A stretch of DNA of 64,000 bases from an uncultured Candidatus Entotheonella sp. (GTDB lineage Bacteria > Tectomicrobia > Entotheonellia > Entotheonellales > Entotheonellaceae), in contig OX639990.1 of assembly GCA_951828535.1 (NCBI GenBank), forward strand, positions 2,033,300 through 2,097,299, read 5' to 3'. The notes beneath the pieces were generated by a model. That model saw nothing but the letters and a program-made list of their open reading frames with translations. It was not told the DNA's origin and ran no database searches. A program made the position numbers and the translations under genes. The number at the start of each line of letters is the position of its first letter. Position 1 is the stretch's first letter. This document shows, one piece after another, positions 28,471 through 53,102 of this stretch.

Positions 28471-29082
28471 CTACAACAGGTATATGAAGGTAAAAACCAT
28501 GATCCACACCAAATCCACAAAGTGCCAGTACAGCCCGGCAATTTCGACCTGTGAAGCGTTTTCGCCGCAATAGGCGCCGTTGCGGCCCTTGAACCAGATG
28601 CACGCCAGATAGATGACGCCACCAGTCACGTGCATGCCGTGGAAGCCCGTGATGACGTAAAACGTGGTGCTAAACAGCGGCGAGCCCCAGGGATTAGCGG
28701 CAAATCCCAGGCCGCCCTGGATGAAGTGCGTCCATTCATAGGCCTGTAAGCCCAGGAAGATCAGGCCGCCCAGGATGGTGAGGCCGATGTGACGCAGGAA
28801 GCCGTCGAGATCGTTCTTCTGCGCTGCCTCAAGCCCTTTCACCATCGTCACGCTGCTGCAGATCAACAGAAAGGTCATGAAACCCGATAAGGCAACGCCG
28901 AGAACGTCAGCCGGAATGGGCCAGTCGCCACTGCTGTAGCGCATGGCACCGTAAGCAGCCAGCAGTGTCCCGAATGACATCGCGTCGCCAACCAGAAAGA
29001 CCCACATCCCGAGCTTGCCCCAACTTTCGGGAGTCAGGGGCGTTTCGTAAGACTCTTCATGCATCGCAACCGCTTCACTCAC
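28471..29082 (-). CDS. Heme-copper oxidase subunit III
   Basis: 203 residues with five helices: KLGMWVFLVGDAMSFGTLL, then LSGFMTFLLICSSVTMV, GGLIFLGLQAYEWTHFI, TTFYVITGFHGMHVTGGVIY, and C-terminal AGLYWHFVDLVWIMVFTFIY. Signature residues EWTHF, FHGMHV and YWHFVDLVW place it in the CoxC/CyoC superfamily. It starts four bases into the end of the upstream small gene. A second subunit III gene lies at 29410. Confidence 0.92.
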   Translation of the reverse strand: MSEAVAMHEESYETPLTPESWGKLGMWVFLVGDAMSFGTLLAAYGAMRYSSGDWPIPADVLGVALSGFMTFLLICSSVTMVKGLEAAQKNDLDGFLRHIGLTILGGLIFLGLQAYEWTHFIQGGLGFAANPWGSPLFSTTFYVITGFHGMHVTGGVIYLACIWFKGRNGAYCGENASQVEIAGLYWHFVDLVWIMVFTFIYLL

Positions 29083-29409: not shown

Positions 29410-30117
29410 TCAATACAGGTAAACCAGCCCGTAAAGAATGGGCCATAACGCCACCACGTAATACCAATACATGGCGCACAGCGCCACACCCGCAGAACCC
29501 CTGGCCGTGTAACGGCGCCGCGCGGCCCACCACAACACGCTCACCAGCCAGATGACGGCGCCGAGCACGTGCACGGCATGGCACCCAACCAGAACGTAAA
29601 ACGTGGCGCCGTAAACGCCCGACGCCAAGGTCAGCCCGTACTGCAGCAGCCGGAGCCACTCGTATCCCTGCACGAGGAGAAACGTGATGCCCAGCCCCGC
29701 GGTGACCAAGAGCATGCGGACCAACTCGCGCTGTCCGCCGCTGCGGATTGCAATTTTCGCCCGCCGCATCGTCAGGGCGCTGGCCAGCAGAATCAGCGTG
29801 TTGACACCCGTAACCCCCACCGGCAAACGCGGCAGCATTGCCGGCGGCCACACCTCATGAGCCACCCGAAAGACCAGGAACGAGCCAATCAACCCGGCAA
29901 AGAACATCGTCTCGGCGCCCAGGAAGATCAGCAGCCCCAGGTAGGCATTGCTTAACGGCGGACCGGCGTGATCATCGTCGTCGCCAAACCGGTCATCACC
30001 CCCCGAGCCGCCGGGCGGCTCAGGAAAGAACGGTGGCGGCCCCTGCGGGCGAACTTCCGATTCAACCTCTTCGAGCGCAGGCTCCAGCGTAACGGTTGCG
30101 GACATGTCTTCGGCCAT
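29410..30117 (-). CDS. Heme-copper oxidase subunit III, second type
   Basis: 235 residues. An acidic, Pro/Gly-rich N-terminal tail of about 55 residues precedes five helices: AYLGLLIFLGAETMFFAGLIGSFL region, GVNTLILLASALTMR, LGITFLLVQGYEWLRLL, YGATFYVLVGCHAVHVLGAV and MYWYYVVALWPILYGLVY. It resembles subunit III of SoxM-like oxidases, with GYEW and CHAVHV in place of EWTHF and FHGMHV. Having two distinct subunit III genes in one operon is notable. Confidence 0.88.
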   Translation of the reverse strand: MAEDMSATVTLEPALEEVESEVRPQGPPPFFPEPPGGSGGDDRFGDDDDHAGPPLSNAYLGLLIFLGAETMFFAGLIGSFLVFRVAHEVWPPAMLPRLPVGVTGVNTLILLASALTMRRAKIAIRSGGQRELVRMLLVTAGLGITFLLVQGYEWLRLLQYGLTLASGVYGATFYVLVGCHAVHVLGAVIWLVSVLWWAARRRYTARGSAGVALCAMYWYYVVALWPILYGLVYLY

Positions 30118-30272: not shown

Positions 30273-31184
30273 CTAAAACTGTGGCACTTTATCGAGTGCC
30301 ATGAACAAGAACATCACCGGTAGATACACCAATGAAGCCAGCAACAGCCGCCGCGCCGCGGCGGTGGTTCGAGCAAACGCCAATTCGAGACCGAATCCCA
30401 GGAACATCAGGCCCAGGACAAAGGCAGCGACAAAGTAAACGGTGCCGGCGAGGCCGACCAGAGTCGGCAGCAGGCCGACGGCCAGGAGGGCCAGATTATT
30501 CATAACGATGTGGCGCCCCGTGCTGCGGCCGTCCGGGTGAATCACCGGCAGGAGACGGAACCCTGCGCGGGTGTAGTCCTCACGATACAACCAGGCAATG
30601 GCCAGCGAATGGGGCAGTTGCCACAGAAACAGGATGGCGAACAGGATCCAGACCTCGCCCACCAGCGTGCCGCGCGCCGCGGCCCATCCGACCACGGGCG
30701 GCAAGGCGCCGGGAATGGCGCCGACAAGCGTACAGAGGGAGCTCTTGCGTTTGAGCGGCGTATAGCCGAACAGGTAGATCAGAGTGGTAAGCGCAATGAG
30801 AGCGGCACAAAGTGGGTGCACCATGATCAACAGATAAGAACAACCGATCAAGGCGGCGGCAAGACCAAAACGCAAAGCGGCTGTTGGTTCCAGGCGACCG
30901 TCCGGAAGGGGCCGCAACTCCGTGCGACTCATCAAGGCGTCTTCGGTGCGCTCAACGTAGGCGTTCAGGGCCAGGGTGCCGCCCGCCGCCAAGGCCGTTC
31001 CGAACATGAGGTGCAGTAGGCGCAGCCAGTCCGGGGCGCCAAGCGCGCCCAGGTAATAGCCCACTGCCGTCACCGCCATCACCATGACCACGACACGCGG
31101 CTTGGCGAGCACCAGATAGTCGCGCACCTTGTGGACGAGGGGCGTGCTTTCAACGCGCGGTGTGGCCAGTTGCAGTCCTGTCAT
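30273..31184 (-). CDS. ctaB: Protoheme IX farnesyltransferase (heme O synthase)
   Basis: 303 residues, UbiA superfamily with about nine helices. The first Asp-rich-type motif region reads NAYVERTEDALMSRTELRPLP and the second is near YREDYTRAGFRLLPV. It adds a farnesyl group to heme B, making heme O for the adjacent CtaA and CoxA. Its start overlaps the end of ctaA by four bases. Confidence 0.92.
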   Translation of the reverse strand: MTGLQLATPRVESTPLVHKVRDYLVLAKPRVVVMVMAVTAVGYYLGALGAPDWLRLLHLMFGTALAAGGTLALNAYVERTEDALMSRTELRPLPDGRLEPTAALRFGLAAALIGCSYLLIMVHPLCAALIALTTLIYLFGYTPLKRKSSLCTLVGAIPGALPPVVGWAAARGTLVGEVWILFAILFLWQLPHSLAIAWLYREDYTRAGFRLLPVIHPDGRSTGRHIVMNNLALLAVGLLPTLVGLAGTVYFVAAFVLGLMFLGFGLELAFARTTAAARRLLLASLVYLPVMFLFMALDKVPQF

Positions 31185-32140
31185 GCCGATACCTGCTCAG
31201 TCAAGAAATGCCGCTCTTGAGCCCCAAAACGAAGCTTCAGCAAGTGCAAACTTCTCAGGGTGAGAAACAGACTTGTCGCCAGAACCGCTGCGCCCACCGC
31301 CACGTGCGCGGTGACCGGCAGAACCGCCCGGCGCGTCCAGATGGTCAGCGCCCCCAGCGTAAGCTGCACCAATAACAAACAGCTCAACGTCAGCGCGGGC
31401 CGCAGCAATTGCCGTTCGCCAGCGTGCTGGCGAATGACCCGCGAGACGGTCCAAGCGATGCCCAGCGTCACCGCCAACGCGCCGACGCGATGCAGGAAAT
31501 GGATGAGCACCGCCGGGGAATCCAAGGGCGGCACCAAGCCGCCAAAGGCGAGCGGAAAATCGGGAATCGCCAAGCCGGCGCCGGTATGCCGCATGAGGGC
31601 ACCCAGAATAAGTTGCCCGTAAATCATCCCCGTGGTGACACCCGCCAGCACAACCAGACGCGGCTGCGAGTCTTCCTCCCGGCTGGCCCACCGTTGTTGC
31701 CAACTCGGGCCCGTGCACACCGCAAGCGTGACGGTCAGGCAAAGAAACGCCTGCGCCAGACACGCGTGGCTGACCGATATCGCCGTCGGCAAGAGCCACA
31801 GCACCGTGATGCCGCCGAGCAACCCCTGCAACACCACCGCCAGCACCGCAGTGCGGGACACCCATTGCAGCCACGCCCGCGATTCCCAGCGGCTCATCAC
31901 GACCATCAAGGTAACCGTCAGCATGCCGACAACGGCCGCCGCCATGCGATGGCTGTGCTCGTACAGCACGCCACCGACCATCGGCGGGAATACCTGCCCG
32001 AAGGACAACGGCCAATCGGGCACCGCCAGCCCGGAGCCTGTGCTGGTAACGGAGGCACCGATGGCGATTAGCAGCAGCGTGGCAACCATCAGCGCCACCG
32101 CCAAGCGGTGCACCCATAGCGGCGTCGGCGACGAAGACAC
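31181..32140 (-). CDS. ctaA: Heme A synthase (COX15/CtaA family)
   Basis: 319 residues from GTG 32140, which overlaps the coxA stop as TAGTG; the longer frame to 32200 would run inside coxA. Eight helices with motif TSTGSGLAVPDWPLSFGQVFPP and paired His (EHSHRMAAAVVG; VSHACLAQAF; IHFLHRVGALAV; VTAHVAVGA) as heme ligands. It oxidises heme O to heme A. The gene is coupled on both sides. Confidence 0.92.
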   Translation of the reverse strand: MSSSPTPLWVHRLAVALMVATLLLIAIGASVTSTGSGLAVPDWPLSFGQVFPPMVGGVLYEHSHRMAAAVVGMLTVTLMVVMSRWESRAWLQWVSRTAVLAVVLQGLLGGITVLWLLPTAISVSHACLAQAFLCLTVTLAVCTGPSWQQRWASREEDSQPRLVVLAGVTTGMIYGQLILGALMRHTGAGLAIPDFPLAFGGLVPPLDSPAVLIHFLHRVGALAVTLGIAWTVSRVIRQHAGERQLLRPALTLSCLLLVQLTLGALTIWTRRAVLPVTAHVAVGAAVLATSLFLTLRSLHLLKLRFGAQERHFLTEQVSA

Positions 32141-33921
32141 TAATCGTGACCCTCCTCCCCAGCCACCGCTGGCTCCAGATACACGCTCTGCGGCAACCAA
32201 TCCTCCTCGACCTCAGGCGAGCTGTATTCGTAGGCGCCGCGGTAAACCACCGGATCCTCGAGGAAATTGCCATGCGGTGGCGGCGAGGGCGCATCCCACT
32301 CCAGCGTGTTGGCCTCCCAGGGGTTATCTTCGGCGCGCCGGCCCCAGATCAGGGAGCCGATGAAGTTGATCGCGAAGAAAATCTGTGAGGCACCCAGGCA
32401 CAGCGCCATCATCGTGATGAACGTGTTCATCTCCTGCCACGGCTGCAGAAATTCATACTGCTCCGGGTTGTAAATGCGCCGCATGTGGCCGCCGACACCG
32501 AGAAAGTGCATGGGGAAGAAGGTGAGGTTGAAAAACACGAAGGTGAGCAGGAAGTGCAGCTTGCCCAGGGTTTCGCTCATCATGCGTCCGAACATTTTCG
32601 GAAACCAGAAGTACAGCCCGGCGAAGATGCCGAAAATGATCCCCGCCACCACGTAGTGAATGTGGGCGACGATGTAGTAGGTATCGTGGATGAAAATGTC
32701 CACCGGCGTCGACGCCATGAAGATGCCGCTGAGGCCGCCGATGGTGAACAGCGATACGAACCCGAGGGCGAACCACATGGCCGTGGTGAACCGGATGGAA
32801 CTGCCCCACAGGGTGCCGAGCCAGTTGAACGTCTTGATCGCCGACGGCACCGCGATCAGCATGGTGGTCAGCGTGAAGGCGGTGCCGAGCACCGGGTCCA
32901 TGCCGCTCTGGAACATGTGATGGCCCCAGACGACCCACGACAGAAAGGCGATGGCGCACATCGAGTAGACCATGGCGCGGTAGCCGAAGATCGGCTTGCG
33001 GGCGAAAGTGGACAGCACGTCGGAGGTCACGCCCATGGCCGGCAGCACCAGGACGTACACCTCGGGGTGACCGAAGAACCAGAATAGGTGTTGCCACAAC
33101 AGCGGCTCGCCGCCGCCGTCGGGAATGAAGAAGTTGGTGCCGAACAAACGGTCGAAGACCATCATGGCCAGGGCTGAGGTCAGCACCGGCAGGGCCAGCA
33201 GCAGCAGAATGGCGACGATGAACAGGGACCAGATGGTCAGCGGCATGCGGAACAGGCGCATGCCCGGCGCCCGCATGTTGATGATGGTGGTGATGTAGTT
33301 GATGGAGCCCATCAGGGAGGAGAAGCCGATGATGAACAGACTGATGCACCACAGCGTGACGCCCCAGTGTCCCTCGACGCCGGCGTAATCCGGCACTGCG
33401 GCCAGAGGGGCGTAACTGGTCCAGCCGCCGCCCGCCGCGCCGCCGGGCACGAAGAATGACAGGAGCATCAGGAGGACGCCGGGCACAAAGGTCCAGTATG
33501 ACAGCATGTTCAGCGTCGGAAACGCCATGTCTTTGGCGCCGATGCAGATGGGAACGAGGAAATTGCCGAAACCGCCGATCATGATCGGCATGACCACGAA
33601 GAAGATCATGATGGTGGCGTGCATGGTGAACAGCGTGTTGTAGAACTCGGACGTCACAATACCGAAAGGAGCCGTCTGCGCCCACCACGACTCGCCATCC
33701 CAGAAGTCCTCGGAAAAACCGCCCATGAAGGGCAACGGTTCTTCCGGATAGCCGAGCTGCCAGCGAACCATCATGGCCAGCAGGCCGCCGATGACCAGCA
33801 TGAACAGGCCGGTGAAGAGAAACTGACGACCGATCATCTTGTGATCGAGCGAGAAAAAATAATGCTTTACAAAACCCTCTCGGTGATGCCCGGCGTGCGT
33901 GGCGGCGCTGGATTCACTCAT
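32140..33921 (-). CDS. coxA: Cytochrome c oxidase subunit I (aa3 type)
   Basis: 593 residues, 12 or more helices. Heme and CuB ligands are visible: TMHATIMIFFVVMP (low-spin heme His), FWFFGHPEVYVLVLP (CuB His with the His-Tyr cross-link pair), VVWGHHMFQSGMDP (two CuB His) and VAHIHYVVAGI (two heme His). The Tyr in GHPEVY is the A-family mark. It reduces O2 to water and pumps protons. Followed by ctaA with a one-base overlap and preceded by coxB. Confidence 0.96.
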   Translation of the reverse strand: MSESSAATHAGHHREGFVKHYFFSLDHKMIGRQFLFTGLFMLVIGGLLAMMVRWQLGYPEEPLPFMGGFSEDFWDGESWWAQTAPFGIVTSEFYNTLFTMHATIMIFFVVMPIMIGGFGNFLVPICIGAKDMAFPTLNMLSYWTFVPGVLLMLLSFFVPGGAAGGGWTSYAPLAAVPDYAGVEGHWGVTLWCISLFIIGFSSLMGSINYITTIINMRAPGMRLFRMPLTIWSLFIVAILLLLALPVLTSALAMMVFDRLFGTNFFIPDGGGEPLLWQHLFWFFGHPEVYVLVLPAMGVTSDVLSTFARKPIFGYRAMVYSMCAIAFLSWVVWGHHMFQSGMDPVLGTAFTLTTMLIAVPSAIKTFNWLGTLWGSSIRFTTAMWFALGFVSLFTIGGLSGIFMASTPVDIFIHDTYYIVAHIHYVVAGIIFGIFAGLYFWFPKMFGRMMSETLGKLHFLLTFVFFNLTFFPMHFLGVGGHMRRIYNPEQYEFLQPWQEMNTFITMMALCLGASQIFFAINFIGSLIWGRRAEDNPWEANTLEWDAPSPPPHGNFLEDPVVYRGAYEYSSPEVEEDWLPQSVYLEPAVAGEEGHD

Positions 33922-33954: not shown

Positions 33955-34764
33955 CTATTGCGCGGTATCGGCCTGGCCACTGTCCTCTTGGTCCATTGGG
34001 TCCACGCCGCCCTGCGGCATGTCCTCTTGGCCCATTTCCTCTACGCCGGTATCCACAGGCGCCGGCCACTGCTCGGCAACCCAGGCCTGATACTCGGCAT
34101 CACTGTAAACGTTCACCCACCCCTTCATGCCGGAATGCCCCGGACCGCACAACTCGGCGCAGGGCGTTTCAAATCGCCCGGTCTTGGTGGCATTAAACCA
34201 CGCCGGGATGTCCCGGCGCGGCAGTATGTCCTGCTTCAGGCGAAACTCCGGCACGAAAAAGCTGTGAATCACATCCGAGCCGCGCAGCGTCAGCCCCACG
34301 ACCTGGTTCACCGGCACGACCATATCGCCGTCGAACATCTTGTCATCCTCAGTGTCGAACTCGCCGTCCGGACCGGGGTAATGAAATTCCCAAGCGAACT
34401 GCTTGGCTACGACGCGTACTTGCACGCTGCTTTCGGGGAATTCGGAAGGATATTTGATGATGGACCATGTGGACTGACTGTAGAAGAAAATGCCCAGGAA
34501 CACGATGGTTGGGACAATTGTCCAAATCAACTCCAGGGCCACGTTGCCGTGCGAATAGCGTGCCCTGCGGCCGGGTCTGGCCTTGAACCGGAGAAGACAC
34601 CAGAACATCACTACCGTCACCAGCAGGAACGCCAGTCCGGTGATGATGTAAATGATGTAGAAGACCTCGTCGATTGCCGGCGCGTACGTCGAGGCGGCCT
34701 CCGGCAGCCAATTCAGCATATTGACGTTCAGCCGGTTCATAAGTTCGATAAGCTGCTCAAGCAT
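33955..34764 (-). CDS. coxB: Cytochrome c oxidase subunit II
   Basis: 269 residues. Two N-terminal helices (FYIIYIITGLAFLLVTVVMFW; LIWTIVPTIVFLGIFFYSQ), then a periplasmic cupredoxin domain. Complete CuA site: His in SDVIHSFFVPEFRLKQD and the cluster CAELCGPGHSGM. The aromatic KQFAWEFHYPG entry patch is present. An insertion rich in Asp (DGEFDTEDDKMFDGD) is unusual. It receives electrons from cytochrome c. No fused heme c domain. Confidence 0.94.
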   Translation of the reverse strand: MLEQLIELMNRLNVNMLNWLPEAASTYAPAIDEVFYIIYIITGLAFLLVTVVMFWCLLRFKARPGRRARYSHGNVALELIWTIVPTIVFLGIFFYSQSTWSIIKYPSEFPESSVQVRVVAKQFAWEFHYPGPDGEFDTEDDKMFDGDMVVPVNQVVGLTLRGSDVIHSFFVPEFRLKQDILPRRDIPAWFNATKTGRFETPCAELCGPGHSGMKGWVNVYSDAEYQAWVAEQWPAPVDTGVEEMGQEDMPQGGVDPMDQEDSGQADTAQ

Positions 34765-34790: not shown

Positions 34791-36410
34791 TCAGCCATGA
34801 TTTTTTCGCGTCACAAACAGCGCCGAGAATTCCACGATCAATCCAAAGCCAATGCCGACCAACAAAAGATAGAGCGGCGCCTTCGAAGGCTCCGGCTCCA
34901 GGTACAGGTTGTACCAGGCCATCACCGTTCGCTTGTAGCCGCCGAACTCGCCGTTCGAACCGTCCCATCCCGTCACGCTGAACGGGATGAAGGCGCCGAT
35001 TGGAAACTGAACTTCCGTGTCCGTCTGCTCCGTCTGCAAAGCCCGCTGGATCACCACGCGGTATTGCCCGTTGTCGAACTGCCCCTGGCTGACCAGCCCG
35101 CCGGCATTGCCGTCAGCCTGGAACGTCCCGGCGCCCTGTGTCCGGGTCAGCACCGCATCGCCCGGATCGTTGCGCCAGTACCACAGGTCGGTCGGATAGG
35201 ACGCGTCGCCCATGAGGAAGTACGGCTTCTCCATGCCGGACAGCGGCTTGGAAGAGAACTGTAAGGCGACAGCGTCCCCGTAGGTCTCCATCTCCTCGCT
35301 CTCGCCCGGCGCGCTCTCGGTGCGGTCGTCCCACACCAGCCGAAAAGCAACTTCCTCGCCGTTGTGCAAGGCCTGGAGTTCCACGCCTACGGTCATGGAG
35401 GCAAACAGCCGCGGCTCCTGGATCACTTGGCCAACCAACGGATAATAGTTGACAGGAGCCTCCTGCCACGCCGCGTCATCGGGACTCATGGGCAGAGCGC
35501 CGTCAACCCGCTTGGCGGTCAACGTCGCCTTGACTTCGGGCTCCTGCGGATAGGTCCACAAGGATTGGACGTAATTCACAGTGTGCCAGGTGTCCTCCTG
35601 CAACTCCCGCGCCAGCGCTTCGATCTCTTGTTTCTCTTCCGGATCGTCCGTCTCGCGGGCCTCGGCCATCGGATCCGGATCGGCAAAGGGCGGCATGGGT
35701 GTACCCGCAATGCCCAGGGAGATGTTACGGAAGATGTCGCGCCGCCCGCTGCCGCCGCGGTAGGTCCACGGCTTGGTCAGATTGGCCGGCCAGATGCGAT
35801 AACCCCAATCGTCCTCCAGGCCGGCGAGGGCTTCCTCGCCGTTGCCGCGCCCGTCCGTTCCGTGGCAGGTGTGGCACTCAAAGACGGTCTCGAAAATTTC
35901 CTTGCCCCTGGCAATGCTCTCCGGCGACGAGGCAATCTCGTTGGCGAAGCTGAGCTCCAGCCCCGGCGTGTCTTCCTCAAACACGTCGGCAAACGTCTTG
36001 ATGTAGTGCACCAACTGGTCGATCTGCTGGCCGCTCAGAACCGTTTCCCAGCCCGGCATGGAGGAGCCGTGCAGCCCCTCGCGAATGCTGCGGGCGATAT
36101 CGGAGTCGGCGGCCAACCAGTTGCCCTCCTCGGTCTCATGGCGGGTTCGGAACTTGTAGACGCCGGAAGTGAAATCGCGCGGCTTAGGATAGACGACATC
36201 CGTCGAAGCCCCCACCCCGTCGCCTTCCACGCCGTGGCAGTGCGCGCAACGCTGGAGGTAAATCTGCTCACCGGCTTCGAGGTCCGCTTCCGTAGGCTGG
36301 GCGTTTACAGGGGAGGCACCCAGCAGCGACAGAAACAACCACAGTCCCACACCCATGCAGCATGCCAGTGCACTTACGCTCCGACCCCGTGTTATCCGTT
36401 GCTCGCTCAC
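34791..36410 (-). CDS. Diheme cytochrome c fused to ethylbenzene-dehydrogenase-like heme b domain
   Basis: About 539 residues from GTG 36410, with GGGGAG upstream. A signal peptide ends near SPVNAQ. Two heme c sites, CAHCHGVEGDGVG and CHTCHGTDGRGNG, are followed by a region resembling the gamma subunit of ethylbenzene dehydrogenase and related DMSO-reductase relatives (a heme b binder): YFLMGDASYPTDLWYWRND. A C-terminal helix (LYLLLVGIGFGLIVEFSALFV) anchors it in the membrane. It sits directly upstream of coxB, so it probably passes electrons toward the oxidase. Confidence 0.8.
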   Translation of the reverse strand: MSEQRITRGRSVSALACCMGVGLWLFLSLLGASPVNAQPTEADLEAGEQIYLQRCAHCHGVEGDGVGASTDVVYPKPRDFTSGVYKFRTRHETEEGNWLAADSDIARSIREGLHGSSMPGWETVLSGQQIDQLVHYIKTFADVFEEDTPGLELSFANEIASSPESIARGKEIFETVFECHTCHGTDGRGNGEEALAGLEDDWGYRIWPANLTKPWTYRGGSGRRDIFRNISLGIAGTPMPPFADPDPMAEARETDDPEEKQEIEALARELQEDTWHTVNYVQSLWTYPQEPEVKATLTAKRVDGALPMSPDDAAWQEAPVNYYPLVGQVIQEPRLFASMTVGVELQALHNGEEVAFRLVWDDRTESAPGESEEMETYGDAVALQFSSKPLSGMEKPYFLMGDASYPTDLWYWRNDPGDAVLTRTQGAGTFQADGNAGGLVSQGQFDNGQYRVVIQRALQTEQTDTEVQFPIGAFIPFSVTGWDGSNGEFGGYKRTVMAWYNLYLEPEPSKAPLYLLLVGIGFGLIVEFSALFVTRKNHG

Positions 36411-36425
36411 CGTCGCTCCCCGCAC

Positions 36426-37211
36426 CTAGTGTCCCCCACCACCTTCACCGCCGCCGTGATCCATGACGCGCGGCTCGTGTCCTGTGGTGTCATACAAGTA
36501 AGCAATGACCTGCCAGATTTCTTCTTCCGTGAGGAAGTCCTCCCAGATCGGCATGGCTGAATCCCACGGTGTCGACTCACTCGGCAATCCCGGCCCGCCC
36601 TTGGCGATGCGCCAGAACAGGTAGGACTCCGACAACTGTGCGATCGTCCCGCTGGCCTGAAAATCCGCCGGGGCCGGGTTGAACCCCTGGGCAAAATGCC
36701 CCTTGCCCTGCAGGGCGTCGCCGTGGCAGAAGAAGCAGTTTTCGTAATAGATAATGCGGCCGTTCTCGATGTGCTCGGCGAGATGCGCCTCGTCCTTGCG
36801 AATGGGGCTGACCGGAATATCCTGCAGCACCAGTTGTTTGCCCTGGAAATTGACCGACGACGGCGGCGTCGGGTGAATGACCCGCAGGCCGCCCGGCGGC
36901 GCGGAACCGCCCGCCGCCCAGGTGGAAAAATACCAGCCGCAGAGTAGCGGCACGACGATGAACACGACAATGCGCAGCGGTTTCATCAGGGCCGTGCGGG
37001 CCAGCAGAAGTTGCCGCACCGGCGAGATGAATTCTTCCCATGACGCCTCGCTGGACGACACGTACAGATAGATCACGAACAACGTCGTAATCACGTACCA
37101 ACCATAGAGTTGCCCAGGAATCGGCGCGGACACAAAGGGCACCACGACGCTGAAAACAAAAATCGCCACGAGCAGGGTGAGCAGGGATTTAAGATGAATC
37201 GACAGTCTCAT
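36426..37211 (-). CDS. Membrane-anchored monoheme cytochrome c
   Basis: 261 residues from ATG 37211. Two or three N-terminal helices (SLLTLLVAIFVFSVVVPFVS; YGWYVITTLFVIYLYV; LRIVVFIVVPLLCGWYF) are followed by one heme c domain (CFFCHGDALQGKG) with Met residues in SAMPIWED as a possible ligand. The tail is Gly/His-rich (GGGEGGGGH). It lies between the diheme protein and the EBDH-like cytochrome. Confidence 0.82.
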   Translation of the reverse strand: MRLSIHLKSLLTLLVAIFVFSVVVPFVSAPIPGQLYGWYVITTLFVIYLYVSSSEASWEEFISPVRQLLLARTALMKPLRIVVFIVVPLLCGWYFSTWAAGGSAPPGGLRVIHPTPPSSVNFQGKQLVLQDIPVSPIRKDEAHLAEHIENGRIIYYENCFFCHGDALQGKGHFAQGFNPAPADFQASGTIAQLSESYLFWRIAKGGPGLPSESTPWDSAMPIWEDFLTEEEIWQVIAYLYDTTGHEPRVMDHGGGEGGGGH

Positions 37212-37248
37212 GATTGCTCCAATTCGAACCCGAAACCCGGTGCCGGGC

Positions 37249-38085
37249 CTATCCGCCACCCTTGAGCGACGCCAAATAATCCACCAGCGTGTTGAGGTCC
37301 TGTATCGCCAGCTTTTGGTAGAAGCCCGTGCCGTCCAGCGTCAATTTCATCAAACTCGGCGGAAAGCCTTCCGCGATCACCGCGTCCGGCTTGAGGATGG
37401 ATTCACGAATGAAACTTTCGTCCTGGCGCGACCCGATGTCCCACAGGCTGGGACCCACCAGGCGAACCGGCGCGTCCAGGCTGTGGCAAGCGATGCATCC
37501 CCACTGCGCCGCCAACTCCTGGCCCGTTCCGCCCGCCGCCGCAACCGCGGCAGGGGCAGCCCCGGCAGCCGGGGCCTCGGCCACCGCGGCGTCCCCTTCG
37601 CCGCGATATTTGGGAAAGCGCGTCTCGCCCGTCACCGTTACTTCACCGCCGAGTGATTGCAGAAAGGCAACCACAGCAACCATTTCAAGGTCGTTCAACT
37701 GGCGTCCCATTGCCGGCATGGTGGGCTGGTAGCCGTCGACCACGTAAACCGCCGGGTTGTGCAGCGACTCCACCATGTACTCCGGGCCGCTGCTGGCATC
37801 ACCCTGGTAACTGGCCTCCTGGACCCGCGCCCCGGCCAACTCGCCAATGCCGGCAAGATTCGGGCAGCGCTCACCCTTTTCGCCAATCGTGTGGCACAGC
37901 GCACAGGTGCCCTTGCCGTAGAAGATTTCTTCCCCGGCCGCCACGAAGGACTCGGGCGCCATGTCCGCCGTCAGGTCGGACTCCTTGGGCGGGTCCTTCC
38001 GCTGCTGCGGGATGCTGTTGCCGACGTACCAGAAGAACAGAACAACCAAACCGTTAAACGCCAAAACTTTCAGAAATGTCAACAT
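37249..38085 (-). CDS. Membrane-anchored diheme cytochrome c
   Basis: 278 residues. One N-terminal helix (LKVLAFNGLVVLFFWYVGN) anchors two cytochrome c domains: CALCHTIGEKGERCPNL and, after an Ala-rich linker (about residues 170-190), CIACHSLDAPVRLVGPSL. Met ligands are likely in QPTMPAMGRQL and SLMKLTLDG. The gene starts 12 bases after the CydA-like gene ends, so the two are probably translated from one mRNA and may form one complex. Confidence 0.85.
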   Translation of the reverse strand: MLTFLKVLAFNGLVVLFFWYVGNSIPQQRKDPPKESDLTADMAPESFVAAGEEIFYGKGTCALCHTIGEKGERCPNLAGIGELAGARVQEASYQGDASSGPEYMVESLHNPAVYVVDGYQPTMPAMGRQLNDLEMVAVVAFLQSLGGEVTVTGETRFPKYRGEGDAAVAEAPAAGAAPAAVAAAGGTGQELAAQWGCIACHSLDAPVRLVGPSLWDIGSRQDESFIRESILKPDAVIAEGFPPSLMKLTLDGTGFYQKLAIQDLNTLVDYLASLKGGG

Positions 38086-38097
38086 GTCGCCGCTTTC

Positions 38098-40311
38098 CTA
38101 GTCTGCGCCGCCGCCGGGTTGCAACACCGGGGACGGGGCCCCATGCAGCACCGCTTCCTCCTGCGCATGCCCCAACGAGCCCATATGGGCCAACCAGAAA
38201 ATGAAACTCACCAGGAGCATAAACACCAGCACGATGATCGAAATCACCCCGCAGGCATAACCCAACGTCGGGGTAAAGGCATCCGACGAGTAATCCCGCA
38301 TGACGTTGAAGATATGCCAGTGCGTGCGCAGGCCCGAACGCGCGTAACCCATCAAGCCCATCAGCCACGTGAACGAGGTGGCAAGCAGGAACAGGACGTA
38401 CTGGGCCCGCTCCGGAATCCGGCCCCAATTGATTGCGCCGACGAGCGGCGCACCGCGGAAGATCACGATGTCGATGGTCGTCGCCACCAGCAGCACGAGC
38501 AGCACCGATGACACCTGCAGGATGGAAAAACCGATGCGCACAATAGCTTCAACGTAGTAGCCGTAGATTCCGTAAAACACCACCACCAGCGCCGACATGG
38601 CAAAGAGCAGCCCCTGCCCCAGGGTACCGCGGTCGTTCAGGGTGAGGGCCACCGCAGCGACCACGGCCAGGGTCTCGAAGCCCCACAGCAGCAGGAGCCC
38701 GGTCATCAGCGCCGGGTCGGCAAGCGGCGCGTTGAGTTGCCACATGAGGACGATCCCCAAGGCCGCCACGATCATCAGCGTGACTTTCGACGCACCGCTT
38801 TGCTGGGCAAAGGGAAGCCGTTCACCCTTGTTGCCGCGGCGGTATAGCAGGAAACTCAGGAAGGTGGTCAGAATCATCAGATTGACGACGGTGTTCTTGG
38901 CCGACATGACCCCGAAGACGCCGAGCATCGGGTGGTGCGCGCCGCCCATCCTGCGGGCCTCTTCCAGGCTGGCCACGAGGCTGTGCGGCGTCAGCCACAC
39001 GAGGAAGCAAACCGTCAGCACGCCGAGCATGACGGGCGTGAACTTGCGGTAGCGCTCCGACCCCGGAATGCGCTCCATGCCCAGCCACAGGTAGTAGTTG
39101 GCGCCCAGAAACAGAGCGCCGATCAGCACCGCCTGCAGGATGAACAACCAGGAGAAAATGCCGCCCATCATGGTGATGCCGAGCTGCTGATCGTAGCCAT
39201 AGATTTCCCGGCCCAGCCAGTAGCCCGCGAAGGGCAGCGGGATCAGCCCGATCAGAGCGATGAAATTGCCAATGTAGCCCATCCAGTCGTAATGCGCCCG
39301 CTCGGGGGAATTGCGCGCCGACGACAGAAAGCGAAACGCCGCATAGGCCGCCACGACCGAGCCGCCAAAGGCGATGTTGGCGATGAAGCGGTGCAGATTG
39401 ACCGGCATCCACGTGAAATTGCGCATCGCGTCCCAGGTCGTGCCCTGGAACATCCCGGTGTCCAGGTTGATCCCCGACGGCGAGGTCATGAAGGTCGCCC
39501 ACGAGTTGGAGATCATCATCAGAATCAGACCGAAATAGTTCAGCAAAATACCGAAGCAGATATGCATCCATTTGCGGCTCTGAACAAAACTGCTCTTGCC
39601 TGGCCGCAACCCGTGCGCCAATAGCGCGATGAACAGGACCCCGGCCAATCCGAACGACACCGGGAAGCTCACCGCCCAGCCGCCACCCATGAACAGGGAC
39701 GGCAGCGCCAGCAGCAACAGGAGCCCCGGGTATAGCACCAGCACGCTCAGGGCCGTCGTGCCGATCACCGTCCCGACGCTGCGCGACGTGCCTTTCAGGA
39801 CGTCCCAGCCGAAGTAGTAGAGGTACATGCTGAAGCTTTCGCCGAAGAACAGAAAGACGTAAACCACCATGGAGGGGAAGAAAATACTGGCCAGGAAATT
39901 CATGAAGGTGGGATAGAGACCGATCAGGAAAAACACCAGGATGCCGCCGAAGATGGCGGTGGTGGAAAAGGCCACGCTGAGAAGGCGGGTGAACTCGTGC
40001 GCCAAGTCGTCGTAATGTTGGTTCTTCGTTGCGGCGCCCAGGATTTCAATGATTAAAATGAACAGCGGCACACCAACCACGAAGGCACCGAACATCAGGT
40101 GCAACTGCGCGATCACCCAAACCGCAACGCGGCGACCGACGACCGGGAAGTCGCCGTAAACCATGTCTTCCTTGGTCGGCAGCGGCACTTCCACCGCCTG
40201 GACTATTTCGGCACAGACGCCGAGCAGCAACAGACCCACAAGGAACATCAGAGCCAGGGAACGGCGTTTTGCCGCCTGCTCTTGTGCGTTGTTGACTCGG
40301 TAACGTCTCAT
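38098..40311 (-). CDS. CydA-like quinol oxidase subunit I homologue
   Basis: 737 residues from ATG 40311. An N-terminal helix precedes a cytochrome bd subunit I-like core: AQLHLMFGAFVVGVPLF carries the His corresponding to the high-spin heme ligand, FFGESFSMYLYYFGWDVL holds an acidic residue, and VNLHRFIANIAFGGSVVAAY carries the low-spin heme b His. The canonical Q-loop GRQPW motif is not found; the nearest segment reads GYWLGREIYGYDQ. About five extra C-terminal helices make it longer than E. coli CydA. No CydB gene follows; three c-type cytochromes do. It may oxidise quinol and pass electrons to those cytochromes rather than reduce O2. Confidence 0.78.
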   Translation of the reverse strand: MRRYRVNNAQEQAAKRRSLALMFLVGLLLLGVCAEIVQAVEVPLPTKEDMVYGDFPVVGRRVAVWVIAQLHLMFGAFVVGVPLFILIIEILGAATKNQHYDDLAHEFTRLLSVAFSTTAIFGGILVFFLIGLYPTFMNFLASIFFPSMVVYVFLFFGESFSMYLYYFGWDVLKGTSRSVGTVIGTTALSVLVLYPGLLLLLALPSLFMGGGWAVSFPVSFGLAGVLFIALLAHGLRPGKSSFVQSRKWMHICFGILLNYFGLILMMISNSWATFMTSPSGINLDTGMFQGTTWDAMRNFTWMPVNLHRFIANIAFGGSVVAAYAAFRFLSSARNSPERAHYDWMGYIGNFIALIGLIPLPFAGYWLGREIYGYDQQLGITMMGGIFSWLFILQAVLIGALFLGANYYLWLGMERIPGSERYRKFTPVMLGVLTVCFLVWLTPHSLVASLEEARRMGGAHHPMLGVFGVMSAKNTVVNLMILTTFLSFLLYRRGNKGERLPFAQQSGASKVTLMIVAALGIVLMWQLNAPLADPALMTGLLLLWGFETLAVVAAVALTLNDRGTLGQGLLFAMSALVVVFYGIYGYYVEAIVRIGFSILQVSSVLLVLLVATTIDIVIFRGAPLVGAINWGRIPERAQYVLFLLATSFTWLMGLMGYARSGLRTHWHIFNVMRDYSSDAFTPTLGYACGVISIIVLVFMLLVSFIFWLAHMGSLGHAQEEAVLHGAPSPVLQPGGGAD

Positions 40312-40736
40312 AGCCTCAAATCTCCATTCCGACGGAAGCCCCACGGAATTGCGAGCGGCCGGTATATCTCGGCGTTGCATGGCACCGCTTGATTGTGAGG
40401 AATGTTATCAACTTTGTACCTGCGTCGCAGACCCTAGCTCGCGGGCGTTACCTAAGCGCAAGTGAGAAATTGTGCGCCTGAGCGTCGTGGCCCGGCAGGT
40501 CATCGGACAGCAACCGACAACGTGCAAGAGGAATGTCGGAGCAGAGCGCGTTTTTTTCGGGGCATACTATAGCGTGTTAGATTTTCTGCTGCAAATCCTA
40601 AAATTGGCCTGCAAAGGCGCCGGTTAAGACCCTTGTGAGCCGGCACATACGTGACGTAGAATGCCGCCCCTTTCCAAGGGCGCCGAGCTGTTCAGCCTAT
40701 ACGATTCCGCAACCGAACACTTTGCAAGGAGTGACC
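40312..40736 (+). other. Divergent intergenic region
   Basis: 425 bp between the minus-strand respiratory block and the plus-strand oxidoreductase gene. It must hold the promoter for the long respiratory operon and one for the oxidoreductase. An AT-rich patch at about 40545-40605 (with GCATACTATAGCG) is the best promoter candidate. No RNA gene or palindromic operator was recognised. Confidence 0.5.
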
Positions 40737-41750
40737 ATGACCGCCACCCGGAGCCACGAAATTCATCTCAAACGCCGCCCCGTCGGCCTGCCAAGCGAGG
40801 AAGATTTTGCCCTTGTTGAAGTGACGCTTCCCGAGCCGGCAGCGGGCGAGGTACTGGTGCGTAACCACTTCCTGTCCGTCGATCCCTACATGCGCGGCCG
40901 CATGTATGATCGCCCCAGCTACGTGCCGCCGTTTCAGATCGGCCAGGTGCTCGAGGGCGGCTGCGTCGGGCAAGTTATTGCGTCGCGGGGGAATGCAAAT
41001 TTTCAGGAAGGGGACTACGTCTCCAGCCGCTCCGGCTGGCGCGAGTGCTACGTCTCCGGCGGTGGGGATCTGACCAAGATCGAGTCCCAGGGCGTGCCGC
41101 TGCAAGCCTACCTCGGCACCATGGGAATGCCGGGCCTGACGGCCTACGTCGGGCTGCTCGACATCGGCAAACCGCAAGAAGGCGAAACGGTGTTCGTGTC
41201 GGGCGCCGCCGGCGCCGTCGGCATGGTGGTATGCCAGATTGCCAAGATCAAAGGCTGCCGCGTGGTGGGCAGCGCCGGCTCGGCAGCCAAGGTGCAGTGG
41301 CTGCGGGACGTTGCCGGCGTCGACGAAGCCTTGAACTACAAAGAAGCGGCCTCCCTGATTGAAGAACTCGGCCGCTTGTGCCCGGACGGTATCGACGTGT
41401 ACTTTGAAAACGTCGGCGGCGCTCACCTGGAAGCGGCGCTGGAGCACATGAACCCCTTCGGGCGCCTCGCCCTGTGCGGCATGATCTCGCAATACAACCA
41501 GGCGGCCCCCGGTCCCGCCAACCTGACCCATGCCGTGCGCAAGCGCCTCACCCTGCAAGGCTTCATCGTCTCCGACCACCCCGACCGCCAGCCCCAATTC
41601 CACGCCGACATGACCGCCTGGATTCAAGCCGGCAAGCTGAAGTGGGAAGAGACGATCGTCGACGGCCTGGAAAACACCCCCAAGGCGTTCATCGGCCTGT
41701 TTACCGGCGACAACATGGGCAAAATGCTCGTCCGCCTCACCGATTCGTAG
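40737..41750 (+). CDS. NADP-dependent MDR-family oxidoreductase (CurA/PTGR-like)
   Basis: 337 residues from ATG 40737, with AAGGAGTG upstream. Zinc-free medium-chain reductase: N-terminal substrate motif VDPYMRGRMYDRPSY, Rossmann glycine motif VSGAAGAVGMVVCQIAKIKG, and DVYFENVGGAHLEAAL, typical of leukotriene B4 dehydrogenase/CurA enzymes that reduce conjugated C=C bonds with NADPH. The last 231 bp are duplicated at 43346-43576. Confidence 0.92.
   Translation: MTATRSHEIHLKRRPVGLPSEEDFALVEVTLPEPAAGEVLVRNHFLSVDPYMRGRMYDRPSYVPPFQIGQVLEGGCVGQVIASRGNANFQEGDYVSSRSGWRECYVSGGGDLTKIESQGVPLQAYLGTMGMPGLTAYVGLLDIGKPQEGETVFVSGAAGAVGMVVCQIAKIKGCRVVGSAGSAAKVQWLRDVAGVDEALNYKEAASLIEELGRLCPDGIDVYFENVGGAHLEAALEHMNPFGRLALCGMISQYNQAAPGPANLTHAVRKRLTLQGFIVSDHPDRQPQFHADMTAWIQAGKLKWEETIVDGLENTPKAFIGLFTGDNMGKMLVRLTDS
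41510..41740 (+). repeat. Direct repeat, copy 1 (3' end of the MDR gene)
   Basis: 231 bp repeated at 43346-43576, flanking the antiporter gene. I count six base differences, all synonymous in the MDR frame. Confidence 0.9.
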
Positions 41751-43345: not shown

Positions 43346-43592
43346 CGGTCCCGCCAACTTGACCCACGCCGTGCGCAAACGCCTCACCCTGCAAGGCTTC
43401 ATCGTCTCCGACCACCCCGACCGCCAGCCCCAATTCCACGCCGACATGACCGCCTGGATCCAAGCTGGCAAGCTGAAGTGGGAAGAAACGATCGTCGACG
43501 GCCTGGAAAACACCCCCAAGGCGTTCATCGGCCTGTTTACCGGCGACAACATGGGCAAAATGCTCGTCCGCCTCACGGGTGCGCAGGGATAA
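43346..43592 (+). pseudogene. Duplicated 3' fragment of the MDR oxidoreductase gene
   Basis: An open but startless frame matching residues from PANLTHAVRKRLTLQG to MGKMLVRLT of the gene at 40737, then a different tail (GAQG) and stop. Only silent differences separate the two copies, so this piece probably came from a functional allele of another strain rather than decaying in place. Confidence 0.88.
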
Positions 43593-47061: not shown

Positions 47062-47253
47062 CTATTTCTCGCAGGTGCACCCCTCGCCGACGCAGACGGG
47101 CGCTCCCGGCAGATGCCCGCAACCACAGAGGTTGCGGCCCTGGCTCCAGGCTTCCCGGCACCAAGCCAGGTGTTCAGCTTCGCGCGCCGCCTGCGCAGCC
47201 GCGGCGCGTTGGCGGCTCTGCTCCTGTCTGGACTCGTGCGCTGCAATCTGCGC
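47062..47253 (-). pseudogene. Cys-rich coiled-coil exported protein, C-terminal piece
   Basis: Reads QIAAHESRQEQSRQRAAAAQ, a coiled coil, then AWCREAWSQGRNLCGCGHLP and a final CVGEGCTCEK before the stop at 47062-47064. It joins in frame to the piece at 48509-48819 when the IS and one GCGC are removed. The Cys-dense tail suggests disulfides or metal binding. Confidence 0.75.
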
Positions 47254-47307
47254 TGGAGTTGACCCGCTTTCGTGGATACCTAATCCTTTTGGGAGGAGGA
47301 ATCCACG

Positions 47308-47622
47308 ATGCCACGAACACGTCCCGCATACCCGCCTGAGTTTCGCCACCAGATGGTGGAGCTGGTTCGCTCAGGTAGATCTGCTACGGAACTGGCCCGC
47401 GACTTCGAGTGCTGTGCGGAGACCATCCGCAAGTGGGTCCGCCAGGCCGACCTCGACGAAGGCCGCCGTGACGACGGCCTGACGAGCGACGATCGCGATG
47501 AGCTTCGCCGCCTACGCCGTGAAAACCGTCAGTTGCGTCTTGAGCGCGAGATACTGGCAAAAGCCACGGCCTGGTTTGCTCGGGAGACCGGCTCGGTACC
47601 CGCAAAGCCTTCGAGTTCATGA
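47308..47622 (+). CDS. IS3-family transposase OrfA (1255-bp IS, copy 1)
   Basis: 104 residues. HTH_Tnp_1 fold (YPPEFRHQMVELVRSGRSAT, then ELARDFECCAETIRKWVRQ) and a leucine-zipper segment (LRRLRRENRQLRLEREILAK). The stop overlaps the OrfB start by four bases. Confidence 0.9.
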   Translation: MPRTRPAYPPEFRHQMVELVRSGRSATELARDFECCAETIRKWVRQADLDEGRRDDGLTSDDRDELRRLRRENRQLRLEREILAKATAWFARETGSVPAKPSSS

Positions 47623-48467
47623 GAGCGAATCAGGCCCGTTACCCCATCGCCAAGGTGGCCCGTTTGCTCGGCGTCTCCCCGAGCGGGTACTACGCCTGGC
47701 GAGACCGTGAGTTGTCGCCTCGCCAGCAATACGATGCTGTCCTCAAGGCTTGCATCAGCAACATCCATCATCGCAGCCGCGGCACTTACGGAGCACCTCG
47801 AATTCACGCCGAGCTTGCCGCCGACGGTATCCATATCGGTCGCAAGCGCGTGGCCAGGTTGATGCGAGAGATGAGCCTGGTCGGGGTATCCAGACGCAAG
47901 GGAACACGCACCACGCGCCGCGACCACAGGCTTCGTCCAGCTCCAGACCTCGTTGAGCGCAGGTTCGAAGCCGATGCACCTGACCTTCTGTGGGTGGCCG
48001 ATATCACCTACGTGCCGACCTGGGCCGGATTCCTGTTTCTGGCGGTCGTCGTCGACGCCTTCAGCCGGCGGGTTGTGGGCTGGTCGATGGCCAATCACCT
48101 GCGCACCGAGCTGGTGCTCGAGGCGCTGAACATGGCGCTGTGGCAACGCCGTCCAGGCAGCGTCGTTCATCACAGCGATCAAGGTAGCCAATATACGTCC
48201 TACGCGTTCGGGAAACGCTGCCGAGAGATGGGCGTCGCGCCGTCCATGGGTTCGGTAGGTGACTGTTTTGACAACGCTATGGCGGAAAGTTTCTTCGCCA
48301 CCCTTGAATGCGAATTCATTGACCGGCGCGTATTCCGTACCCAAGCTGAGGCCCGCATGGCGATCTTCGAATACATAGAAGGCTGGTACAACCCACACCG
48401 TCGTCACTCTGGCCTCGGCTACCTGTCGCCACTAAACTTCGAGAGGAGCCATCAACAAGCTGCTTAA
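47619..48467 (+). CDS. IS3-family transposase OrfB (1255-bp IS, copy 1)
   Basis: 282 residues with HTH_21 (VARLLGVSPSGYYAWRDREL, YGAPRIHAEL) and DDE integrase core: LLWVADITYVPTWAGF, VVHHSDQGSQYTS, and NAMAESFFATLECEFI carrying Asp, Asp and Glu. Intact. Confidence 0.92.
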   Translation: MRANQARYPIAKVARLLGVSPSGYYAWRDRELSPRQQYDAVLKACISNIHHRSRGTYGAPRIHAELAADGIHIGRKRVARLMREMSLVGVSRRKGTRTTRRDHRLRPAPDLVERRFEADAPDLLWVADITYVPTWAGFLFLAVVVDAFSRRVVGWSMANHLRTELVLEALNMALWQRRPGSVVHHSDQGSQYTSYAFGKRCREMGVAPSMGSVGDCFDNAMAESFFATLECEFIDRRVFRTQAEARMAIFEYIEGWYNPHRRHSGLGYLSPLNFERSHQQAA

Positions 48468-48508
48468 ATGCCAAGCTATCAACTGTCCACGGAAACGGGG
48501 CAACTCCA

Positions 48509-48819
48509 GCGCCTCGTGTTTGCGTCGTTCGTCGGCAAGCCGTTGCTGTTTCAACTGTTCCTCTATCACGCGCTCTTCGTCGCGCTGCGCTTTCAAGGCT
48601 TCCAATTGCCGGTGAAGTGTTTCGGAAGTGATGCCTCCCTCTTTCCAACGACGACAGGCCGTCTCCTTGGCCTTCGCCCGTTCGTTATAGGCACCCGCAC
48701 GCCGTTCTGTCAGTCGTTTCGCTTCTGCTGACAGGTCGTCCATCAGCTTTGCTTCGAGAACAAGACAGGAGTGGAAGACACACCAGCATTCGCTTTCCAT
48801 ACGTGCGTCATAGGTCTTC
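48509..48819 (-). pseudogene. Cys-rich coiled-coil exported protein, middle piece
   Basis: Reads MESECWCVFHSCLVLEAKLM, then a long charged coiled coil (AKRLTERRAGAYNERAKAKE; LHRQLEALKAQRDEERVIEE). It continues in frame into the pieces on both sides once the two IS copies and one copy each of CTTC and GCGC are removed. Confidence 0.75.
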
Positions 48820-48873
48820 TGGAGTTGACCCGCTTTCGTGGATACCTAATCCTTTTGGGAGGAGGAATCCACG

Positions 48874-49188
48874 ATGCCACGAACACGTCCCGCATACCCG
48901 CCTGAGTTTCGCCACCAGATGGTGGAGCTGGTTCGCTCAGGTAGATCTGCTACGGAACTGGCCCGCGACTTCGAGTGCTGTGCGGAGACCATCCGCAAGT
49001 GGGTCCGCCAGGCCGACCTCGACGAAGGCCGCCGTGACGACGGCCTGACGAGCGACGATCGCGATGAGCTTCGCCGCCTACGCCGTGAAAACCGTCAGTT
49101 GCGTCTTGAGCGCGAGATACTGGCAAAAGCCACGGCCTGGTTTGCTCGGGAGACCGGCTCGGTACCCGCAAAGCCTTCGAGTTCATGA
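48874..49188 (+). CDS. IS3-family transposase OrfA (1255-bp IS, copy 2)
   Basis: Same protein as at 47308-47622: HTH followed by a leucine zipper; overlaps OrfB by four bases. Confidence 0.9.
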   Translation: MPRTRPAYPPEFRHQMVELVRSGRSATELARDFECCAETIRKWVRQADLDEGRRDDGLTSDDRDELRRLRRENRQLRLEREILAKATAWFARETGSVPAKPSSS

Positions 49189-50033
49189 GAGCGAATCAGG
49201 CCCGTTACCCCATCGCCAAGGTGGCCCGTTTGCTCGGCGTCTCCCCGAGCGGGTACTACGCCTGGCGAGACCGTGAGTTGTCGCCTCGCCAGCAATACGA
49301 TGCTGTCCTCAAGGCTTGCATCAGCAACATCCATCATCGCAGCCGCGGCACTTACGGAGCACCTCGAATTCACGCCGAGCTTGCCGCCGACGGTATCCAT
49401 ATCGGTCGCAAGCGCGTGGCCAGGTTGATGCGAGAGATGAGCCTGGTCGGGGTATCCAGACGCAAGGGAACACGCACCACGCGCCGCGACCACAGGCTTC
49501 GTCCAGCTCCAGACCTCGTTGAGCGCAGGTTCGAAGCCGATGCACCTGACCTTCTGTGGGTGGCCGATATCACCTACGTGCCGACCTGGGCCGGATTCCT
49601 GTTTCTGGCGGTCGTCGTCGACGCCTTCAGCCGGCGGGTTGTGGGCTGGTCGATGGCCAATCACCTGCGCACCGAGCTGGTGCTCGAGGCGCTGAACATG
49701 GCGCTGTGGCAACGCCGTCCAGGCAGCGTCGTTCATCACAGCGATCAAGGTAGCCAATATACGTCCTACGCGTTCGGGAAACGCTGCCGAGAGATGGGCG
49801 TCGCGCCGTCCATGGGTTCGGTAGGTGACTGTTTTGACAACGCTATGGCGGAAAGTTTCTTCGCCACCCTTGAATGCGAATTCATTGACCGGCGCGTATT
49901 CCGTACCCAAGCTGAGGCCCGCATGGCGATCTTCGAATACATAGAAGGCTGGTACAACCCACACCGTCGTCACTCTGGCCTCGGCTACCTGTCGCCACTA
50001 AACTTCGAGAGGAGCCATCAACAAGCTGCTTAA
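49185..50033 (+). CDS. IS3-family transposase OrfB (1255-bp IS, copy 2)
   Basis: Same protein as at 47619-48467, with an intact DDE core. Confidence 0.92.
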   Translation: MRANQARYPIAKVARLLGVSPSGYYAWRDRELSPRQQYDAVLKACISNIHHRSRGTYGAPRIHAELAADGIHIGRKRVARLMREMSLVGVSRRKGTRTTRRDHRLRPAPDLVERRFEADAPDLLWVADITYVPTWAGFLFLAVVVDAFSRRVVGWSMANHLRTELVLEALNMALWQRRPGSVVHHSDQGSQYTSYAFGKRCREMGVAPSMGSVGDCFDNAMAESFFATLECEFIDRRVFRTQAEARMAIFEYIEGWYNPHRRHSGLGYLSPLNFERSHQQAA

Positions 50034-50074
50034 ATGCCAAGCTATCAACTGTCCACGGAAACGGGGCAACTCCA

Positions 50075-51851: not shown

Positions 51852-51914
51852 TGACCTAGCCCCTTGAATCCGGGCCACGGGGATGTAGAGTCCATTGTAG
51901 GGAGGATGGGCTCT

Positions 51915-52178: not shown

Positions 52179-52210
52179 CGCCCGACGCCAAGCGGGTAGC
52201 CGTTCGGCAG

Positions 52211-53089: not shown

Positions 53090-53102
53090 CCGGTGGCGGG
53101 AA

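Follow-up and report, generated by a model that had tools for sequence, protein, structure and literature searches.

A CydA-like protein encoded with three c-type cytochromes and an aa3 oxidase in Candidatus Entotheonella

The locus and its four-gene module

The genes described here lie in a stretch of 64,000 nucleotides (the window) from Candidatus Entotheonella sp., a member of the Tectomicrobia and of a sponge-symbiont lineage, whose genome is assembled as one 3.6-Mb contig with an estimated completeness of 92% (GCA_951828535.1, OX639990.1:2,033,300-2,097,299). A module of four genes in this window encodes a relative of the bd oxidase subunit CydA and three c-type cytochromes which, as far as can be judged from sequence, are likely to form one membrane complex with high-potential hemes and a repurposed CydA core.

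The CydA-like (bd-like) membrane core is encoded on the minus strand at 38098..40311, where the ATG at 40311 yields a protein of 737 residues with about 16 predicted transmembrane helices and an alternative upstream ATG would yield one of 760 residues. Its match to Cyt_bd_oxida_I (PF01654) scores 55.8 bits, above the cut-off of 26.2. The same strand continues with a membrane-anchored diheme cytochrome c (37249..38085), a monoheme cytochrome c with N-terminal transmembrane helices (36426..37259) and a protein (34791..36425) in which a diheme cytochrome c domain is joined to a domain resembling the gamma subunits of ethylbenzene dehydrogenase (EBDH) and nitrite oxidoreductase (NXR) and to a C-terminal transmembrane segment, the alt_NxrC type (EB_dh, 64.7 bits). 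Pfam places the cytochromes in Cytochrom_C/CBB3, and recognises in the next two minus-strand genes COX2 and COX1, namely coxB for subunit II of an aa3 oxidase, which is without a cytochrome c domain (33955..34764), and coxA for subunit I (32140..33921). From the CydA-like gene through the diheme, monoheme and EBDH-like cytochromes and coxB to coxA the intergenic gaps are 12, -11, 0, 26 and 33 bp, and with their shared strand these genes look like one operon. The 737-residue frame and the gene order downstream of it had already been described in an initial annotation of this DNA, as had the heme counts and the membrane link of the cytochromes; open reading frame (ORF) coordinates and Pfam bear out the former, and CxxCH counts of two, one and two with hydrophobic helices in all three cytochromes the latter.

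All CxxCH motifs are invariant across the cytochrome alignments, and a distal Met that is almost invariant can be assigned to every heme (M123 and M246 in the diheme protein, M236 in the monoheme protein, M123 and M244 in the EBDH-type protein); all five c hemes are thus of the His/Met type that usually has a high potential. The diheme cytochrome matches Kustd1711 of Kuenenia (7zs0) over almost its whole length (E 1e-27), and its counterpart from a Brocadia module does so over the full length (E 2e-166). Kustd1711 is encoded in an anammox nxr cluster, and bound calcium accounts for the potential of its two hemes, which is near +350 mV for both (PMC11791136). It shares both distal Met residues with the window protein but carries a Hfq-like nose domain that the latter is without, and the window gene lies away from any NXR. 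In the EBDH-type protein the N-terminal half matches the diheme protein 6h5l_B and the C-terminal half NXR gamma (7b04_C) and EBDH gamma (2ivf_C), a two-part pattern that agrees with the description of 'alt_NxrC'. The Met position for heme b of the EbdC type is M405 in the window; among 70 family members it is Met in 20 and Arg in 32, and a heme b in the EBDH-like domain was dropped from consideration because Met is present in only 20 of 70.

When 84,980 species genomes were scanned with an alignment of four sequences as query, at least 565 relatives came up, of which the best 79 loci were read. The four-gene module occurs in at least a dozen phyla, a recurrence which puts the set beyond chance. 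For 62 CydA-like genes the sequence available downstream exceeds 4.2 kb; by script, all three cytochrome genes follow 57 of them, and the other five have a fused monoheme-EBDH gene (L079, L090, L092), a changed order (L080) or an overlapping diheme ORF (L051). The fused product, found in Thiodiazotropha, Chromatiales and Sedimenticola, is a triheme protein of about 800 residues. Elsewhere, in genome G004 and in Scalindua (L101, L160), CydA and the diheme cytochrome form one open frame, and because of these two kinds of fusion the four proteins are taken to be parts of one complex.

The tree of CydA-like proteins splits deeply into two clades. The anammox proteins and one copy from paired loci fall in clade I; the second of the paired copies falls in clade II, together with the window protein and those of other Tectomicrobia, Gemmatimonadota, Acidobacteriota and Chloroflexota. 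A second CydA relative is present at 29 loci, usually as part of a second full module. The gene occurs in all five genomes of the phylum that were examined, and near relatives of the window protein include Candidatus Tectimicrobiota records as well as a protein titled Dehalococcoidia (L024) with 94% identity, although the titles of metagenome-assembled genomes (MAGs) can mislead. The coxBA genes lie 3' of the module at six loci, in a relative of the window (L023) and in Gemmatimonadota, Chloroflexota and Poribacteria (L049, L052, L077, L087, L091). With six loci only, and with coxBA on another contig in the related genome G003, a coxBA linkage was rejected as a general rule.

Two departures from the usual layout were seen among the loci. 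A 903-residue frame from Planctomycetota (L161, 1647-4355, minus strand) has a different N-terminal half, one CxxCH motif and a CydA-like C-terminal half, and represents a further bd-like architecture. In G001, a related genome, stops and changes of frame disrupt the CydA-like and diheme cytochrome genes (L007, L022, L026) where a contig ends, as either an assembly error or a pseudogene would produce.

Residues and fold of the CydA-like core

Residues of the core were mapped by profile alignment with eight canonical CydA proteins, and E. coli numbering is used for comparison. H71, E158, H250 and H307 correspond to H19, E107, H126 and H186, so that both heme-ligand His contexts named by the initial annotation are recovered (H71 and H307), and a weaker global alignment pairs R662 with R448 and W665 with W451. 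MAFFT alone had set H340 opposite H186, an assignment overturned in favour of H307 by the profile alignment. The position of E99 is occupied by Tyr in all 105 family sequences (Y151 in the window), and that of E445, a ligand of heme b595, falls in a gap. The Q-loop residues K252 and E257 are absent in all members. The GRQPW motif, reported earlier as missing, is indeed absent as such, but a relic of the form G-L-R-x-x-W persists at the aligned place. M393, a ligand of heme b558, is without an alignable counterpart, for which M469 is a candidate. Conservation extends to H340, H443, H460, M469 and H666, and about 75 core positions are invariant among 53 sequences, some of them inside extra helices.

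The number of predicted membrane helices, about 16 as opposed to nine in CydA, had been overlooked. With the positive N-terminus placed inside, H71, H307, H443, H460, M469 and H666 would face the periplasmic side and H250 and H340 the cytoplasmic side, where D342 is also placed. The heme sites of the core thus probably remain near the periplasmic cytochromes, while two acidic residues of the known O2 site are missing.

An AlphaFold2 model of the core (pLDDT 82.7, pTM 0.84) finds its best fold match in the bd subunit CydA (7ose_A, Z 35.5 over 354 residues at 3.5 Å) and its next in ActF of alternative complex III (ACIII; 6btm_F, Z 23.1), with unrelated chains at 8.3 or below. By sequence the core is akin to CydA, not to NrfD. 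A model of the CydA-diheme cytochrome fusion (pLDDT 83.7, pTM 0.72) gives the same matches and in addition ActC (Z 19-20) and PsrC (Z 16.4), and its C-terminal part matches Kustd1711 (Z 18.9). Hfq-like folds found with this model correspond to the nose domain known from Kustd1711 and do not point to a role with RNA.

Respiratory context and possible functions

Apart from the window protein, no relative of CydA occurs in the host genome, and a search of that genome at 92% completeness gave no PF02322 match, so that the absence of cydB noted initially holds genome-wide. Outside the module, a cluster at 1.055 Mb encodes a Rieske protein, cytochrome b6, subunit IV and a pentaheme cytochrome c. ACIII was sought through its NrfD subunits: the host genome has two NrfD loci, neither with a full ActB (about 1000 residues), so that no ACIII was found in it, and the window has neither ActB nor the pentaheme cytochrome c ActA. 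One of the two (L167, 816000-829000) encodes a Fe-S protein with a twin-arginine (TAT) signal, a NrfD protein and two tetraheme cytochromes, and the other adjoins a formate dehydrogenase-like gene. No NXR was found in the host genome, where the best match to type II dimethyl sulfoxide reductase alpha subunits scored 231 bits as a whole protein and 122 in the genome search, against a cut-off of 985. Besides coxA, the COX1 family is represented by a cbb3-like oxidase, a 790-residue frame and a short fragment. The 790-residue frame (L017, at about 648 kb) has no NCBIfam match and is possibly a quinol-dependent nitric oxide reductase.

Of the 39 other genomes that carry the module, 33 encode a bc-family cytochrome b, although some of the weaker matches may be other cytochromes b, and the six genomes without one all have NrfD proteins. 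The gene order around NrfD is ACIII-like at four loci (L143, L145, L146, L147) and likely so in G019, which has two neighbouring NrfD genes; in G017 the NrfD context is not ACIII-like. By this co-occurrence with cytochrome b or with NrfD and ACIII, the module goes along with complex III of one kind or the other, and it is not specific to nitrite oxidation. In keeping with this, type II molybdoenzymes above the cut-off occur in two of 40 module genomes, and NXR-like frames of about 1150 residues occur in several anammox and other module genomes and not in the host; most carriers are not nitrifiers by name. Canonical CydA is found in seven of the 39, and a systematic link between it and the module was rejected on this count.

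The genes of complex III are in some cases close to the module. Those for bc lie nearby at L043, L052 and L081; bc, module and cox are neighbours in Poribacteria (L052), and ACIII, cox and module fall within 16 kb in Rhodothermales (L066). An operon of Acidobacteriota (L098) goes further, with the order ActA-ActB-ActE-CydA-like-diheme-monoheme-EBDH type, in which ActA matches 6f0k_A (2e-67) and ActB matches 8k9e_B (1e-278). Within about 10 kb of it there is neither ActC nor ActD, the ActF position being judged from the ORF list, and a second Acidobacteriota locus (L075), cut inside ActB at a contig end, agrees with this order. If ActC is missing, ActB would be left with no partner to oxidise quinol, and the CydA-like core at these loci is therefore the strongest hint for quinone chemistry.

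The favoured reading, to which we give a probability of about 0.4, is that the module encodes an ACIII-like complex for electron exchange between quinone and cytochrome c, working alongside complex III. It is preferred because of the loss of E99 and E445, the operon with ActABE, the fold match to ActC and ActF and the presence of the module in anammox bacteria. The core would keep two hemes close to the periplasmic side, a low-spin heme b bound by H307 and a second heme bound by H71, and would have lost the canonical O2 site and the Q-loop. Quinone would be exchanged at a new, putative site in the helices that replace the Q-loop, and electrons would pass between the quinone pool and a periplasmic chain made up of the diheme, monoheme and EBDH-type diheme cytochromes, while E158 and the cytoplasmic-side residues H250, H340 and D342 would serve proton movement. 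In the host, an aerobic bacterium, quinol would be the donor and cytochrome c the acceptor, on a route that runs beside the bc complex and leads to the aa3 oxidase of the operon; in anammox bacteria and nitrite oxidisers the direction could be reversed. The putative transfer from the CydA relative to aa3 rests on the shared operon and the coxBA neighbours at six loci. A wider claim is more tentative, namely that the module represents a third architecture of quinol:cytochrome c oxidoreductase, derived from bd and not from bc or NrfD and able to replace the NrfD subunits of ACIII; it is just as tentative that such an architecture would be common to anammox bacteria, nitrite oxidisers and many heterotrophs.

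Several points weigh against an exchange with quinone. We know of no CydA-like core of this module whose hemes, potentials or activity have been measured. The canonical Q-loop residues are gone, and the site proposed in their stead is putative. The bc complex of the host would make a second quinol:cytochrome c enzyme redundant. The hybrid with ActABE is found in two Acidobacteriota MAGs only, one of them cut at a contig end, and in both genomes ActC could lie elsewhere, while the fold match to ActC and ActF may be common to every CydA. Finally, in two papers related bd-like families are treated as O2 reductases that use donors other than quinol and oxidise cytochrome c (PMC10839748, PMC12342949, after Murali et al. 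2021).

This last point also speaks for the main rival, a doubtful but serious one, in which the complex is an O2 reductase of the bd type that takes its electrons from cytochrome c (the OR-C/OR-N idea) and acts as a second terminal oxidase beside aa3. The three cytochromes would stand in for quinol, and electrons would run from the c hemes to the heme b at H307 and on to the heme at H71, where O2 would be reduced with protons drawn from the cytoplasm via E158. Such an enzyme asks for the least change from CydA, as the equivalents of H19, H186, E107, R448 and W451 are kept, the Q-loop is lost and c hemes are added, and the invariant Tyr at the E99 position could join in O2 chemistry. Against it stand the loss of E99 and of the b595 ligand E445, the adjoining aa3 genes and the cbb3-like oxidase that the host also has, and the single CydA of the genome, with which a CydAA' pair is impossible. 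The module is moreover conserved in the nxr clusters of anaerobic anammox bacteria (PMC3578206, PMC6606698), and because of its presence in these anaerobic planctomycetes a pure O2 role is disfavoured.

It is unlikely that the complex is simply a periplasmic electron hub, in which the core serves mainly as an anchor and the five c hemes link complex III, dehydrogenases and aa3 with no quinone or O2 chemistry. The proximity of complex III, module and aa3 genes at the Poribacteria and Rhodothermales loci would suit such a hub, as would the missing c domain of CoxB and the His/Met type of all five hemes; the many invariant positions of the core, extra helices included, would be needless in a mere anchor.

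Far less probable is a part in nitrite oxidation, as an anchor of NXR and a route of reverse electron transport to quinone such as has been proposed for Nitrospira, Nitrospina and anammox bacteria. The gene content is that of the nxr-linked cluster and the Brocadia diheme subunit resembles Kustd1711 over its full length, but the host has no NXR-like enzyme, many module genomes show none and most carriers go by names other than those of nitrifiers. As a general function nitrite oxidation is refuted, and its scope would be limited to nitrifiers and anammox bacteria: a module that spans at least a dozen phyla and here stands beside aa3 in a genome without NXR must have another basic function. Least probable of all is the initial proposal that the CydA relative replaces bc1 as the cell's sole quinol:cytochrome c oxidoreductase, which the operon with aa3 and the missing cydB would fit and which the bc-type cluster at 1.055 Mb and the cytochrome b of most module genomes contradict; of the two finds that together had been named as refuting it, a bc complex is present and a cydB partner is absent. 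Of that proposal the exchange between quinone and c hemes survives, as a possible and favoured function.

The window holds further genes for the aa3 oxidase. Downstream of coxA, again on the minus strand, lie a ctaA-like gene for heme A synthase, identified by position and relatives (31181..32200, with an unrefined ORF start), a ctaB-like gene for protoheme farnesyltransferase (30273..31184) and two copies of coxC for subunit III (29410..30117 and 28471..29082). Upstream of the module, 231 bp are duplicated with 97% identity (41510-41740 and 43346-43576); they are the 3' part of a gene resembling NADPH-dependent quinone oxidoreductase (40635-41750), and the second copy, which follows an antiporter gene, builds a truncated chimeric ORF. 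A perfect inverted repeat of 1595 bp (5126-6720 and 7602-9196), a perfect direct repeat of 1256 bp (47253-48508 and 48819-50074) and a 1.27-kb repeat of 90% identity (824-2092 and 51850-53118) are probably mobile elements. At 9310-10189 units of about 102 bp, which resemble one another at 87-91%, are repeated in tandem, and the 5' start of a formate dehydrogenase alpha-like gene occupies 63329-64000 and continues beyond the window end.

Relation to known systems

The function of the bd-like module is a question of some age that can now be approached outside the nitrifiers, and its distribution and the ActABE hybrids render it testable. One carrier is a named strain, Sedimenticola hydrogenitrophicus SN1189 (L092), and the natural fusions of CydA and diheme cytochrome c offer single-chain targets for structure and assay. 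If the complex were a quinone/cytochrome c enzyme, a bd-derived kind of complex III would be added to those known; if it were a bd oxidase fed by cytochrome c, it would be a terminal oxidase without the usual residues of the O2 site.

The closest known system is the bd-like protein of nxr clusters, which was described as enigmatic in 2013 at the latest and shows high transcription in Nitrospira (PMC3578206, PMC6606698). In the genome paper of N. gracilis three extra helices were described to replace its Q-loop, and a role like that of 'alternative complex III' in reverse electron transport was suggested, provided that quinone binds (Luecker et al. 2013, PMC3578206). The ACIII-like role put forward for the window protein is thus not new. 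A literature search on CydA-like proteins with cytochrome c and quinone gave no match. The transcriptome of N. moscoviensis revealed a cluster of alt_NxrC_2, two c-type cytochromes and bd-like_3, which occurs in duplicate in Nitrospira and is also conserved in Nitrospina and in anammox bacteria (PMC6606698). This nxr-linked cluster ('bd-like_3/_4 + alt_NxrC_2 + two c') has the same four protein types as the window, and by gene content, Kustd1711 homology and anammox relatives the window module matches it, the Nitrospira module being known by description. The window differs in that its genome is without NXR, has a single core of clade II and includes aa3 in the operon.

Like CydA of the CydAB quinol oxidases, the core has the bd fold and keeps the equivalents of H19, E107 and H186, but it is without CydB, Q-loop, E99 and E445, has about seven helices more and is joined by three c-type partners. 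With ACIII (ActABCDEF) the complex would share a membrane core combined with c-type cytochromes and a fold similar to ActC and ActF (Z 19-23); it differs in having no ActA or ActB in the window and in a core related to CydA instead of NrfD. The OR-N and OR-C bd-like families resemble it as CydA relatives without a quinol site which are thought to use cytochrome c, but OR-N1 and OR-N2 form a CydAA' pair, whereas the Entotheonella genome encodes a single CydA.

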